64,000 nt of DNA, from assembly GCF_900109035.1 (NCBI RefSeq), contig NZ_FNYD01000007.1, forward strand, positions 186,001-250,000, written 5' to 3'. This document shows, one piece after another, positions 41,872-61,417 of this stretch (positions are counted from its first letter, which is position 1; every line of letters starts with the position of its first letter). The position numbers and the translations under genes were made by a program. The DNA comes from Cribrihabitans marinus. GTDB lineage: Bacteria > Pseudomonadota > Alphaproteobacteria > Rhodobacterales > Rhodobacteraceae. The notes under the pieces were generated by a model. That model did no database searches and was not told the DNA's origin. It saw nothing but the letters and a program-made list of their open reading frames with translations.

Positions 41872-42133
41872 GGGGCGGGCGGCATCCGATCCGCAAGATC
41901 TTGCGACAGCCTCTAAACCTGCCCCGACCCCGCGTTTTCAATGATGCAAGATCGCACCAGTTTCGCCATGTTTTCGCCTGAAATCAGGTATTTCGTGAGT
42001 CGACGACTTGAGCGAATGGCTGAATGACGGCACAAATGGGGCCAAAATGAGGCATTCGTCCCTGGGGGACGGGTTCAAGTTGGAACAAGGGTTCGGCGAC
42101 GTACCGGCCTGTCCAGTTTGAAGGGATCGGACA
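41872..42133. other. Intergenic region between the leuD terminator and a membrane-protein gene
   Basis: With the terminator this gap is 317 bp. It is richer in A+T than the coding DNA around it and contains no convincing open frame. A small hairpin CGTCCC-TGG-GGGACG (42057-42071) lies 62 nt before the next gene and may be a leader element. I see no clear promoter or known regulator site. Confidence 0.5.
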
Positions 42134-56912: not shown

Positions 56913-57935
56913 ATGGGTTATCGCGTCGTCATCGCAGGCGCCACGGGCAACGTGGGCCGCGAAATGCTGAACATCCTGGCCGAACGCCAGTTCCCGGTGG
57001 ATGAGATCGCCGTCCTGGCAAGCCGCAGGTCGCTGGGCACCGAGGTAAGCTTTGGCGACAAGACCCTGACCACGCAGGATCTGGACGCCTTCGATTTCAC
57101 CGGCTGGGACATGGCGCTTTTCGCCATCGGCTCGGACGCCACCAAGAAATACGCGCCCAAGGCCGCCGCCGCCGGCTGCGTGGTGATCGACAACAGCTCG
57201 CTCTACCGCTACGACGCCGACGTGCCGCTGATCGTGCCCGAGGTGAACCCGCAGGCGATCCACGGCTATGACAAGAAGAACATCATCGCCAACCCGAACT
57301 GCTCGACCGCACAGATGGTCGTGGCGCTGAAGCCGCTGCATGACCGCGCCCGGATCAAGCGCGTGGTGGTCTCGACCTACCAGTCGGTCTCGGGCTCGGG
57401 CAAGGAGGGGATCGACGAGCTCTGGGACCAGACCAAGTCGATCTACAATCCTACCGACGACAAGCCGGCCAAGAAGTTCACCAAGCAGATCGCCTTCAAC
57501 GTGATCCCGCATATCGACGTGTTCATGGACAGCGGCGACACCAAGGAGGAATGGAAGATGGTCGCCGAGACCAAGAAGATCGTCGATCCGTCGATCAAGG
57601 TCACCGCGACCTGCGTCCGGGTGCCGGTCTTTGTCGGCCATTCCGAAGCGGTGAACATCGAGACCGAGGATTTCCTGGACGAGGACGAGGCGCGCGACAT
57701 CCTGCGCGAGGCGCCCGGCATCATGGTGATCGACAAGCGCGAGGACGGCGGATACGTCACGCCGGTCGAATGCGTCGGCGATTTCGCCACTTTCGTCAGC
57801 CGCATCCGCCAGGATTCGACCATCGACAACGGCCTGAACCTGTGGTGCGTGAGCGACAACCTGCGCAAGGGCGCGGCGCTGAACGCGGTGCAGATCGCCG
57901 AGTTGCTGGGCCGCGAGGTTCTCAAGAAAGGTTGA
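56913..57935 (+). CDS. asd: Aspartate-semialdehyde dehydrogenase
   Basis: 340 residues. NADP-binding GATGNVG near the N terminus; the active-site cysteine is in NPNCSTAQM; TYQSVSGSGKEGIDEL and CVRVPVFVGHSEAV complete the signature. It reduces aspartyl phosphate to the semialdehyde shared by lysine, methionine and threonine synthesis. Monocistronic, followed by a G+C hairpin. Confidence 0.97.
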   Translation: MGYRVVIAGATGNVGREMLNILAERQFPVDEIAVLASRRSLGTEVSFGDKTLTTQDLDAFDFTGWDMALFAIGSDATKKYAPKAAAAGCVVIDNSSLYRYDADVPLIVPEVNPQAIHGYDKKNIIANPNCSTAQMVVALKPLHDRARIKRVVVSTYQSVSGSGKEGIDELWDQTKSIYNPTDDKPAKKFTKQIAFNVIPHIDVFMDSGDTKEEWKMVAETKKIVDPSIKVTATCVRVPVFVGHSEAVNIETEDFLDEDEARDILREAPGIMVIDKREDGGYVTPVECVGDFATFVSRIRQDSTIDNGLNLWCVSDNLRKGAALNAVQIAELLGREVLKKG

Positions 57936-57983: not shown

Positions 57984-58068
57984 GGCCAATGCCCGCCCCT
58001 GCCCTGAGCTTGCTTTTGTGCGGCCCGCTTGCAACGCTGGCCGGAACAACAGCCAAGGCAGGTGCATC

Positions 58069-59700
58069 ATGCGCAACCCCATCCTCGCGATTGCCTTACT
58101 GGCGCTGCAACCGGCCTATGCCGAGACCATCGCCGTCTCCAGCCGCGTCACCGAAGTGACGATGCACCCCGACAGTGCCGCCATCTTGCGGCGCGCCGAG
58201 GTGTCCTTGCCCGCCGGCCGTCACCGGCTGGTGCTGCAGGGCGTGCCCGCCTCGGCGGTTTCCGAAAGCCTGCGGGTCGAGGTGGAGGGCGCGCGTCAGA
58301 CCGGTACGTTGCTGCGCCAGGATCGGGTCCCGCCCCGCGATGCGGATACGCCCGAGATCGACGCCGCACGCCAGCGCATAGAAGAGATCGAAGACCGGAT
58401 CCGCGGCGTCGAGGATGATGCCCGCAGGGCCCGGCTGGCCGGCAGCGCAGCCGAGGCGTCCCTGACATTCCTGCGCGGGCTTGGCGAGAACGAGGGCCTG
58501 GCCGAGGCCGGCCCCGACACGCTGCGAGACATCGCCCGGATGATCCGCGACGAGGCCGGAGCGGCCGGGGCGGCGGCGCTGGATGCCGAGATCGCGGCGC
58601 GGCGGATCGAGGACCAGCTGAGCGACCTGCGCGACGAACTGAAGGCCGCGCAGCAGGCCCTTGCCGCGCTCACGGTCGAGGATGAGGACCGCCTGTTCAT
58701 CGCAATCGAGGTCGACGCGCCAGAGGCGGCCGATGCCACCGTCACCTTGCGCTATCTCGTGCGCGGCGCAACCTATTGGACACCGGCCTATGACCTTCGG
58801 CTTGCCACTGGCGATGCGCCGTCGCTGACGCTGGAGCGGAGCGCGCTGGTGCGGCAGACCACCGGCGAGAACTGGACCGACGTGGCGCTGCACCTGTCGA
58901 CTCTGGCCCCGGTCGGGCGGGCGGAGCCGAACGCATTGTTGCCCCTGCGCCTGCGGATCGGCCCACCCGAGGCCCCGGTGCGTCAGAGTCGGAGCCAGCC
59001 CGAATCCGACGGCCTCGCCTCACTGGTCGCCCCTGCGCTGGAGGCGCCCGCGCCGCCCCCACCGCTCTGGAAGGTCGCCGAGGGCCCGGGCGTCACCTAC
59101 AGCTACGCCGTGCCGGTTTCGATCGCGTCCAGTGCCGACCTGCTGCGGCTGCGGCTCGACAGCCTGTCGCAACCGGCGCAGGAACGCGCCCTGGCGGTGC
59201 CCTTCCACGATCAGACCGCGTTTCACATGGCGCGTGTCGAGGACGGCTGGGGCGAGGAGCTTCTGCCCAGCCAATACGCCGCGCGCTATGTCGACGGGGT
59301 TCTGGTCGGCACGAGCGGGTTTCCCGGACTGGCCGCCGGCCAGGAGGCCGAGTTCGGCTTCGGCCCGATCGACGGGCTGCGCATCAAGCGCGACGTCCTG
59401 GACCAGAGCGAGGGCGACCGCGGCCTGATCAACCGCTCGAGCGAGCGGAACGAACGGGTCGAGATCGAGGTCGAGAACCTGACCGGGCGGGACTGGCCGC
59501 TGCGCGTGCTCGACCGTGTGCCCTATTCCGAGCAGGAAGACCTGGAAATCTGGTGGACCGCGTCGCCGCGGCCCGACGAAGATGATGTCGACAAGCAGCG
59601 CGGGATCCTGGCCTGGGACTTTGATCTGGGTACGGGCGACACGCGGACGATCCGCATCGACACCACCCTGACTTGGCCCGAGGGCATGGTTCTGCGCTGA
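58069..59700 (+). CDS. Secreted DUF4139-family protein
   Basis: 543 residues. Signal peptide MRNPILAIALLALQPAYA, then a DUF4140-like N-terminal segment (SSRVTEVTMHPDSAAILRR), a coiled coil about residues 105-205 (IDAARQRIEEIEDRIRGVED), and a DUF4139 beta-rich C-terminal half (LRYLVRGATYWTPAYDLRL). Such proteins are sometimes called mucoidy-inhibitor MuiA-like. Periplasmic; function unknown. In the C terminus DRVPYSEQEDLEI is family-typical. Confidence 0.88.
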   Translation: MRNPILAIALLALQPAYAETIAVSSRVTEVTMHPDSAAILRRAEVSLPAGRHRLVLQGVPASAVSESLRVEVEGARQTGTLLRQDRVPPRDADTPEIDAARQRIEEIEDRIRGVEDDARRARLAGSAAEASLTFLRGLGENEGLAEAGPDTLRDIARMIRDEAGAAGAAALDAEIAARRIEDQLSDLRDELKAAQQALAALTVEDEDRLFIAIEVDAPEAADATVTLRYLVRGATYWTPAYDLRLATGDAPSLTLERSALVRQTTGENWTDVALHLSTLAPVGRAEPNALLPLRLRIGPPEAPVRQSRSQPESDGLASLVAPALEAPAPPPPLWKVAEGPGVTYSYAVPVSIASSADLLRLRLDSLSQPAQERALAVPFHDQTAFHMARVEDGWGEELLPSQYAARYVDGVLVGTSGFPGLAAGQEAEFGFGPIDGLRIKRDVLDQSEGDRGLINRSSERNERVEIEVENLTGRDWPLRVLDRVPYSEQEDLEIWWTASPRPDEDDVDKQRGILAWDFDLGTGDTRTIRIDTTLTWPEGMVLR

Positions 59701-59995
59701 CCGATCCGGCCCGCCGCGGTAACACGAGGCGCGCGAATCGCACCCTGGAAAACTGCAACTGTGAGGCGAAGTCGCCGCCCGTTTCGAATCAGTTAAAACC
59801 CACATCAAATCCTGTGTTTCGCAGGTCGAAAAAATCGGGCCGACCGCCGGCAATAATGCGTCACACAGTAGACAATCATTTGTCAGAATTGTGATTTGCC
59901 GCTTTTCAGCCTCAAGAATGATCAATTCCCGCCTCAATCTGAGCCAAACCTTAACGGTGTTCGCAAACCGCATACTCAGGGAAAGGAGGCAGCGA
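59701..59995. other. A/T-rich region upstream of three tiny genes
   Basis: 295 bp, markedly richer in A+T than its surroundings between about 59790 and 59970. It must carry the promoter of the small-gene cluster; TTGTCA (near 59881) with a T-rich element 17 bp on is a weak candidate. An in-frame extension of the first tiny gene runs through it but lacks a ribosome-binding site. No dyad of note. Confidence 0.45.
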
Positions 59996-60157
59996 ATGAC
60001 CACCAGTTCGCTTTCTCTCGATACCGGCAAAGTTGTGTCGGCTCCCGCTCCGGGAAACCCGGTGACGAAAACCGGCGCAACGCGGCGCCTGCCATCGCTC
60101 GCCTGTTCCGACCTGGACAGGATGTTCGAGCAGGCACAGAGCCGCGGCACCGGCTGA
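59996..60157 (+). CDS. Tiny protein 1 of a three-gene cluster (53 aa)
   Basis: 53 residues, MTTSSLSLDTGKVVSAPAPG at the N terminus and a short charged helix LACSDLDRMFEQAQSRGTG at the end. It starts at an ATG with an ideal AAAGGAGG 7 nt upstream, the best evidence that it is translated. No family recognised, no signal peptide or membrane segment. Followed 98 nt on by a second tiny gene. Confidence 0.6.
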   Translation: MTTSSLSLDTGKVVSAPAPGNPVTKTGATRRLPSLACSDLDRMFEQAQSRGTG

Positions 60158-60255
60158 CACATGCGGCGGCGCGGTTCCTGCCAGGGCCCGCCAAGACCGT
60201 GACGACGAAGCAAGACGCGGGCCAAGACCGCCCGGCACAAACAAAGGGGATGACC

Positions 60256-60435
60256 ATGACCAGTATTCTGACATTCACACCGGGCACTCAGACCCGCCGC
60301 GCACCGGCCCCCAGGGCGATGACGCAGAACGTCGTTTCCATGGACGACTGGCGCAATGCCCCGCACCCGATCCGCACGCCGCACGGTGTCTTCTTCGTCA
60401 CCAACGTCTGGGGGTCGTCCGGCGACGCCGCCTGA
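60256..60435 (+). CDS. Tiny protein 2 of a three-gene cluster (59 aa)
   Basis: 59 residues, starting MTSILTFTPGTQTRRAPAPR, with a likely folded C-terminal part (VVSMDDWRNAPHPIR then GVFFVTNVWGSSGD). AAAGGGG precedes; ATG 60256 gives better spacing than ATG 60250. No family recognised. 48 nt separate it from the third tiny gene. Confidence 0.6.
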   Translation: MTSILTFTPGTQTRRAPAPRAMTQNVVSMDDWRNAPHPIRTPHGVFFVTNVWGSSGDAA

Positions 60436-60483
60436 AACCCCTCTCTTTCGCCCTCACACCAATCCGAATCCAGGAGAACCAAA

Positions 60484-60675
60484 ATGACCATCTCGCTCGC
60501 CGCCCAAGCCCGCAGCAACCGCCTCGCCGCACTGGCGCATCTGCGCACACTCCGCGAAAACGAAGGAGAAGGCGGCACCATCTGCGATCTGGCCGCCGCG
60601 CGCTCCAGCCGCAAGCCCACGCCGGTCTTCTTCTCGCGCCGCATGCAGGCAGAGCCGGAGCGGATGGCGGCCTGA
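60484..60675 (+). CDS. Tiny protein 3 of a three-gene cluster (63 aa)
   Basis: 63 residues, MTISLAAQARSNRLAALAHL followed by a charged helix and FFSRRMQAEPERMAA. Predicted mostly helical and basic. CCAGGAGAACC lies just before the ATG. No family recognised. A strong 13-bp hairpin follows at 60722. Confidence 0.62.
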   Translation: MTISLAAQARSNRLAALAHLRTLRENEGEGGTICDLAAARSSRKPTPVFFSRRMQAEPERMAA

Positions 60676-60721
60676 CCTCCGCGACAGCACCCGACAATCC
60701 GGCCACTCACACAGCCGAAAC

Positions 60722-60752
60722 CGAAGGGGCAAGCCAGGCGCTTGCCCCTTCG
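60722..60752. terminator. Hairpin between tiny-gene cluster and carbonic anhydrase
   Basis: Perfect 13-bp stem CGAAGGGGCAAGC/GCTTGCCCCTTCG with a 5-nt loop, between convergent units. There is no U-tract on either side, so it may work with Rho or protect 3' ends. Confidence 0.65.
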
Positions 60753-60766
60753 CCGTGAAAGGCGGT

Positions 60767-61417
60767 CTAGACCGCGATGAACCGGCCGGCGTCGGGGTCG
60801 TAATACTCCAGCCCGCCTTCGCCGATATCCGTCCAAAGGCCATGCAGCGTCAGCGAGCCGTCGGCAACCGCATCGGCGACGAAGGGAAAGGTCATGAGGT
60901 TGTCGAGCGAGGCCAGCACCGCCTGGTGCTCGAAACTGCGGGCTTGCTGGGTCGCGTCCTCGATATCCGCAACCGAGTCGAATTTCGGTCGCAGGATGTC
61001 CATCCAGCGTCCCACGAAGCTCTCCTTGGCCTCCAGTTCGGGTGCCTTTCCCTTGCACATGTCGATGCAGCCCTGCACGCCACCGCATTGCGAATGGCCC
61101 AGCACGATCAGATGCGCCACCTTCAGCACGGTGACCGCGTATTCCACCGCGGCGCTGGTGCCGTGGTGATCGCCGTCCGGCTCGTAGGGCGGCACCAGGT
61201 TGGCGATGTTGCGGTGAATGAAGAATTCGCCCTGGTCGGCCCCGAAGATCGAGGTCACGTGGACCCGGCTGTCACAACAGGAAATCACCATTGCGCGTGG
61301 CCGTTGCCCCTCGGAGGCCAGCCGTCGATACCAGGTCTTGTTCTCTTGATAGGCCGTGGCCTTCCAGCCGTGATAGCGTTGCACCAGGTAGCTGGGCAAG
61401 GGTTGAGCAATCGTCAT
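60767..61417 (-). CDS. Beta-class carbonic anhydrase
   Basis: 216 residues from ATG 61417. Zinc ligands: C47 in the CxDSR motif (SCCDSRV), H108 and C111 in LGHSQCGG; D49/R51 form the catalytic dyad. It interconverts CO2 and bicarbonate in the cytosol, supplying bicarbonate to carboxylases. Length fits clade B bacterial enzymes. Alternative start at 61453 adds 12 residues without support. Confidence 0.95.
   Translation of the reverse strand: MTIAQPLPSYLVQRYHGWKATAYQENKTWYRRLASEGQRPRAMVISCCDSRVHVTSIFGADQGEFFIHRNIANLVPPYEPDGDHHGTSAAVEYAVTVLKVAHLIVLGHSQCGGVQGCIDMCKGKAPELEAKESFVGRWMDILRPKFDSVADIEDATQQARSFEHQAVLASLDNLMTFPFVADAVADGSLTLHGLWTDIGEGGLEYYDPDAGRFIAV

Follow-up and report, generated by a model that had tools for sequence, protein, structure and literature searches.

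A conserved cassette of tiny genes beside carbonic anhydrase in Cribrihabitans marinus and its promoter block of phased 11-bp repeats

Three tandem small genes and their chromosomal surroundings

The window, meaning the whole 64-kb stretch of Cribrihabitans marinus DNA that was analysed, carries three tandem open reading frames (ORF1, ORF2 and ORF3) ahead of a convergent carbonic anhydrase gene (Table 1). An initial annotation, made from the sequence alone, had described three consecutive tiny genes of 53, 59 and 63 residues, each with its own Shine-Dalgarno sequence, behind an A/T-rich region and ahead of a 13-bp hairpin, and all of these features were recovered. ORF2 has two in-frame ATGs, at 60250 and 60256, giving proteins of 61 and 59 aa, respectively, and the second is most likely the start because of the AAAGGGG Shine-Dalgarno sequence in front of it. 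Spacers of 98 and 48 bases separate ORF1 from ORF2 and ORF2 from ORF3, and neither folds better than shuffled sequence. The A+T content of positions 59780-59995 is 52% versus 33% across the window; a simple scan found no sigma-70-like promoter. The segment from 60715 to 60765, which contains the hairpin, has a folding energy of -29.5 kcal/mol (z -4.2). The hairpin has no T-run and was missing from the list of a simple terminator scan; stems are also found behind ORF3 in relatives (13 nt, 92% complementary, and 17 nt, 88%, in L035 and L036; 9 nt, 89%, in L030), and the hairpin is a probable end of the transcript.

Table 1. Features of the small-gene locus and its neighbours (window positions)
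Feature	Position	Strand	Size or sequence	Characteristics	Evidence
asd, aspartate-semialdehyde dehydrogenase	56916..57935	+		Conserved upstream neighbour	Pfam, synteny
Mucoidy inhibitor MuiA family (DUF4139/DUF4140)	58018..59700	+		Immediate upstream neighbour in the window	
Promoter block	59890..59941	+		Phased 11-bp direct repeats	Motif discovery, periodicity, leave-one-out
Shine-Dalgarno of ORF1	59982..59989	+	AAAGGAGG		Sequence
ORF1	59996..60157	+	53 aa	Family motif around R-x-L-P-x-L-x(5)-E/D-x-x-F	Homologues
Shine-Dalgarno of ORF2	60243..60249	+	AAAGGGG		Sequence
ORF2	60256..60435	+	59 aa	Core NVVSMxxWR...RTxxGVFFxTN; C-terminus GDAA	16-member alignment, pN/pS, synteny
Shine-Dalgarno of ORF3	60472..60476	+	AGGAG		Sequence
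ORF3	60484..60675	+	63 aa	N-terminal helix with ARxNRxAAL, later F-x-S-x-R; C-terminus RMAA	17-member alignment, pN/pS, predicted helix 5-30
Hairpin	60722..60752 (arms 60722-60734/60740-60752)	.	13 bp, 100% complementary	Between ORF3 and the convergent carbonic anhydrase gene	
Carbonic anhydrase (Pro_CA)	60767..61411	-		Conserved downstream neighbour	Pfam, synteny

Conservation with synteny had been proposed as a check on the initial annotation, and the homologues of ORF2 and ORF3 do retain their order and position. Of 24 cassette loci searched with the proteins that flank the cassette in the window plus an sbtA protein (a set excluding L061, which coincides with L032, and the ORF3-only loci L132-L142), 18 retain one or more of the conserved neighbours asd, muiA, carbonic anhydrase, a gene for a 127-aa protein, pepA and sbtA. 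The genes asd, carbonic anhydrase, the 127-aa gene and pepA were all found in L033, L036, L037, L062, L065, L071, L072 and L074; six loci (L032, L063, L064, L068, L069 and L073) had none of the neighbours searched for. The muiA gene (DUF4139), upstream of the cassette in the window, is on its downstream side in L030 and L031; in L033-L036 the search did not detect it. Sodium-bicarbonate transporter (Sbt_1) genes are located close to the cassette in L070, L071 and L130, beside a P-II-like protein in L070 and carbonic anhydrase in L071.

Homologues, selection and family relations

Homologues were sought in 394 genomes of the window's family. A single-sequence search with ORF3 (E 0.001) matched 6 of these and a two-row ORF2 alignment (E 0.01) matched 19, while profile searches, which scored 16 candidates per genome and whose counts are thus lower bounds, matched at least 21 genomes with a 16-row ORF2 profile and at least 67 with a 17-row ORF3 profile (E 0.01 per genome). 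Fifteen genomes fell below 1e-15 with the ORF2 profile, every one of them already a row of that profile, and six lay at 0.003-0.009; G157, among these six, is on the evidence of its locus a real cassette, because ORF3 adjoins and the promoter array described below is present. With the ORF3 profile 18 genomes fell below 1e-10, comprising 16 profile members and two new ones (G157 and G337), and several of the weakest matches are probably false, namely fragments inside long frames. In a class-wide ORF3 search of 190 genomes, the only strong matches came from two members of the window's family, namely its own genome and G079, and two further genomes gave marginal ones (0.002-0.004). Nine loci belong to named relatives: six Ruegeria (including R. 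spongiae, R. marina and R. pomeroyi), one Aliiroseovarius and two Maritimibacter, of which Ruegeria and Maritimibacter are placed by NCBI taxonomy in the Roseobacteraceae, order Rhodobacterales. ORF2 and ORF3 are present twice in at least three loci (L037, L038 and L065), and eleven other genomes (L132-L142) carry ORF3-like genes with no recognised ORF2 nearby, often with L-x-x-KARxGR near the start.

ORF2 and ORF3 are real protein families that are under purifying selection in close pairs. In close Ruegeria pairs (within L033-L035, and L030/L031) pN/pS was 0.06-0.27 for ORF3 and 0.23-0.41 for ORF2; in distant pairs, where synonymous sites are strongly diverged, it was higher, up to 1.00. Only one pair could be compared for ORF1 (pN/pS 0.54, 11 changes), and the case for this gene therefore depends on its homologues, which were found in eight other loci (L030, L031, L037, L064, L065, L066, L069 and L072) and, weakly, in L073 (E 0.04). 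ORF1 has been lost in Ruegeria L033-L036, in which its start region is gone and part of its DNA is still recognisable, and by these comparisons it is less constrained than ORF2 or ORF3. The region holds many spurious ORFs of similar size, as would be expected if the three frames had arisen by chance in GC-rich DNA, but homology, selection and synteny refute this origin for ORF2 and ORF3 and the homologues of ORF1 counter it there, leaving chance hardly credible as an explanation. It is also improbable that the transcript acts mainly as an RNA, either a leader or a small RNA element, to which the small ORFs are secondary. A DNA block close to TACCGGTAAAGTTGT, located before ORF2, is conserved in Ruegeria L033-L036 despite the loss of ORF1, as such an element might be; however, between close pairs ORF2 and ORF3 have clearly more synonymous than replacement changes, Rfam at gathering cut-offs yielded only a tRNA in the window and no match at the cassette, and the two spacers show no folding beyond that of shuffles.

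No family had been recognised for the three proteins in the initial annotation, and searches of Pfam, NCBIfam and PADLOC bear this out. Pfam gave no convincing family among 7 ORF1, 16 ORF2 and 17 ORF3 members, NCBIfam gave none for the ORF1-ORF3 proteins, and no PADLOC family matched any of the three proteins of the window up to E 1; lone stray matches in these libraries had E values of 0.03-0.14 and concerned one member each. Searching the PDB by sequence with ORF2 and ORF3 revealed nothing below E 0.5, PHROGs produced a single match to a nameless family in 1 of 17 ORF3 members (E 0.003), no match was found on plasmids (ORF2 and ORF3 queries) or in phages (ORF2 query), and among the open-access titles listed none was on these proteins. 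We conclude that these small genes are real and conserved, and that the libraries searched contain no description of them.

A common ancestry of all three proteins had also been suggested, and this holds in part. In a profile comparison ORF2 and ORF3 align over NVVSxxDxR...F (probability 77%, P 2e-5), and because of this shared core their common ancestry is supported and they are probably old duplicates; comparison of ORF1 with ORF2 or ORF3 gave no signal, and for ORF1 the suggestion is not borne out. Relatives do not share two of the proposed family features, the M-T-x-S start and the TQTRRAPAPR segment; in their alignment the part of ORF3 that is conserved is F-x-S-x-R within SRKPTPVFFSRR. 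The structural model of ORF3 consists of one confident helix (residues 5-30, mean pLDDT 80), and the AF2 model of ORF2 of a short helix and a hairpin with low confidence (mean 68).

The promoter block and its candidate regulator

Motif discovery on 22 of 25 upstream regions, with three near-duplicates left out, revealed a 44-bp promoter block of phased 11-bp repeats, which is newly identified here together with the C-terminal Ala-Ala bias of ORF2 and ORF3 described below. In the window its 44-bp core begins 100 bp upstream of the ORF1 start, with in-phase triplets GCC (59898), GCC (59909), GAT (59920) and GCC (59931). L074, which has two ORF3-like genes at the asd/carbonic anhydrase place, had no array site and is not included in the subsequent counts, which are based on 21 sites. 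At a lag of 11 bp the identity was 0.382 versus 0.252 in shuffled sequence, with a z of 10 that is not readable as a probability because the sites are related by descent, and there were lesser peaks at 10 and 21-22 bp. In a leave-one-out analysis that also removed some close relatives, and whose site alignment was itself built from all sites, 21 of 21 sites were the top-scoring place within the 350 bp upstream (scores 13.7-30.3); the window site scored 20.9 versus 7.2 for the next best place in the 64 kb, and the maximum in a background of 30 chvI loci was 9.2. A search of the window's own genome gave E 3.3e-7 at the window site, itself one of the model's 21 rows, and 0.04 at the next place. 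Strong arrays (23.8 and 23.0) were also present at two untrained loci that came from a protein search after training, L130, which adjoins asd/sbtA, and L131, which adjoins carbonic anhydrase; the remaining 11 of the 13 untrained loci L130-L142 scored 9.2 or less. Upstream of the 11 ORF3-like genes the mean 3-unit score was 4.2 versus 0.3 in background windows, and 3 of the 11 fell below p 0.05. The array lies 93-110 bp before the ORF1 start in the eight sites with a recognised ORF1 and 163-341 bp before the ORF2 start in the 13 sites without one.

Other readings of the promoter were dropped by eye, sigma-54 for its spacing of 9 instead of 10, and CtrA and GANTC for want of conservation in the window. 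Further in-phase GCC-N8 repeats occur at 42015-42058 on the reverse strand and 41949-41981 on the forward strand, between leuD (named by eye) and a gene for a 277-aa protein without a Pfam match, and rank with the window's highest-scoring sites for the repeat unit. Elsewhere in the same genome (L077-L083) the promoter model matched more weakly, in several cases near what look by eye like genes for a zincin peptidase, exonuclease III, RNase D and thiamine pyrophosphokinase.

OmpR-class regulators typically recognise direct repeats spaced by one helical turn, as is also stated in PMC9275681, and the array is likely to be read by a response regulator of the OmpR/PhoB class, for which ChvI is the leading candidate. 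The consensus for Sinorhizobium meliloti ChvI, as cited in PMC9731502, is N-GCC-N8-GCC, and a repeat of this type is present in the window at 59898 and 59909, with a third GCC in phase at 59931; a different motif, TTGC-N3-GCAA, is reported for Caulobacter crescentus ChvI. In the window's own genome, L085 encodes a regulator (Response_reg, Trans_reg_C) beside a kinase (Sensor_TM1), adjoining an hprK-like gene (PF07475), and the pair was named ChvI/ChvG because of this gene and domain layout; relatives of ChvI were found in 31 of 41 genomes at E 1e-60. ChvI autoregulation through the array was unsupported, as the upstream regions of chvI in 19 loci (the window's own genome and 18 relatives) have no consistent array, the best 3-unit scores, uncontrolled for A+T bias, ranging from -1.3 to 9.8 with 9.1 in the own genome.

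The same microprotein operon might instead have its phased repeats read by CenR or by an unrelated architectural protein, which we consider possible without being probable. CenR of Rhodobacter sphaeroides, also OmpR-class, recognises the direct repeat TGA-N8-TGA in the account given in PMC9275681, where the spacing is stated as 10 bp; by our own count it is 11 from start to start, the same as in the array. Read by eye, a TGT-N8-TGA shortly precedes the array in the window as well as in L033, L036 and L062, and the inconsistency of the array at chvI itself would likewise fit another reader. Against this, the conserved core of the unit is GCC/GAC and not TGA, and GCC-N8-GCC corresponds to the S. 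meliloti ChvI report as cited in PMC9731502. The promoter resembles a response-regulator target, which fits a signal-induced operon. The initial annotation likened the proteins to stress-induced microproteins; stress induction is a hypothesis, and the array at 59890..59941 provides a concrete promoter on which it can be checked.

C-terminal Ala-Ala and a working model

The cassette proteins are biased at their C-termini. Ala-Ala ends 24 of 27 ORF3, 14 of 25 ORF2 and 4 of 9 ORF1 proteins, which are related to one another and include near-duplicates (L030/L031, L033-L035), versus 3 of 125 in a background set, drawn from these loci by length (at least 250 aa), in which some ORFs may be spurious or mutually orthologous. 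A final Ala is found in 26 of 27 ORF3 and 23 of 25 ORF2 proteins, and the residues preceding Ala-Ala are variable. In the window ORF2 and ORF3 both have the form xAA and ORF1, ending in RGTG, does not; the tmRNA tag of the same genome, ANDNRAPVALAA, ends in ALAA. This pattern suggests that the C-terminal Ala-Ala may be a built-in degron of the ClpXP type. The Caulobacter CtrA sequence DPNEQVNAA is presumably that protein's C-terminus. In a table of PMC8138137 it is labelled N-terminus.

A possible degron of the sort found on antitoxins, in small, tandem, fast-evolving genes that are duplicated in at least three loci (L037, L038 and L065), might be taken to indicate a toxin-antitoxin or defence cassette. 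We regard this as very improbable, given that the three window proteins have no PADLOC match, the cassette keeps a stable place beside housekeeping genes in 18 of 24 loci, ORF2 and ORF3 are unmatched on plasmids and ORF2 in phages, and ORF1 is lost in some relatives.

Building on the observed protein families, selection, synteny, promoter repeats and C-terminal bias, we infer an operon under an OmpR/PhoB-type regulator, with ChvI the leading candidate, that makes short-lived, partner-binding microproteins, a reading to which we give a probability of about 0.5. The response regulator would bind the row of 11-bp repeats, each one helical turn, approximately 100 bp before the first start codon and, on receiving its stimulus, switch on a single ORF1-ORF2-ORF3 transcript. 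ORF3 would contact its partner by the N-terminal helix and ORF2 by its small helix and hairpin, and the terminal Ala-Ala would target both to ClpXP-type proteolysis, so that their levels would closely track promoter activity. More speculatively, and in our view rather unlikely, one response regulator, ChvI or a relative, could drive a family-wide regulon in which phased 11-bp arrays control both the asd/carbonic anhydrase cassette and the weaker ORF3 relatives, with ssrA-like C-termini giving a pulse-type output on envelope or inorganic-carbon physiology by partner binding. Small proteins are the least annotated fraction of bacterial genomes. The two families described here are clearly under selection, occupy a constant chromosomal location and have a well-delimited promoter, and the laboratory model Ruegeria pomeroyi belongs to the group in which they occur. 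Their function is testable, with the promoter array giving access to the regulator and the Ala-Ala tails to protein turnover.

Several known systems invite comparison. DUF1127, which we take to be PF06568, comprises tiny alphaproteobacterial proteins and is like the ORF1-ORF3 proteins in this respect; unlike them, no cassette member matched its Pfam model (0 of 7 ORF1, 0 of 16 ORF2 and 0 of 17 ORF3 members at E up to 5, in a search whose HMMER filters drop most weak matches). Three DUF1127 proteins of Agrobacterium tumefaciens bind the sensor kinase PhoR, according to PMC12501420. With ssrA-type C-degrons and ClpXP substrates, including the tmRNA tag of the same genome and Caulobacter CtrA, ORF2 and ORF3 share the xAA end, which is absent from ORF1 of the window and from 10 of the 11 ORF3-like proteins of L132-L142; the latter speak against the Ala-Ala end as a general rule. 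The promoters of the ChvI regulons (ExoS/ChvG-ChvI, BvrS-BvrR) resemble that of the cassette in sequence, through the GCC repeats spaced by N8 in S. meliloti, whereas the cassette array is longer and phased. The CenKR regulon of R. sphaeroides likewise has an OmpR-class direct repeat, with TGA as the half-site there and GCC in the cassette array.
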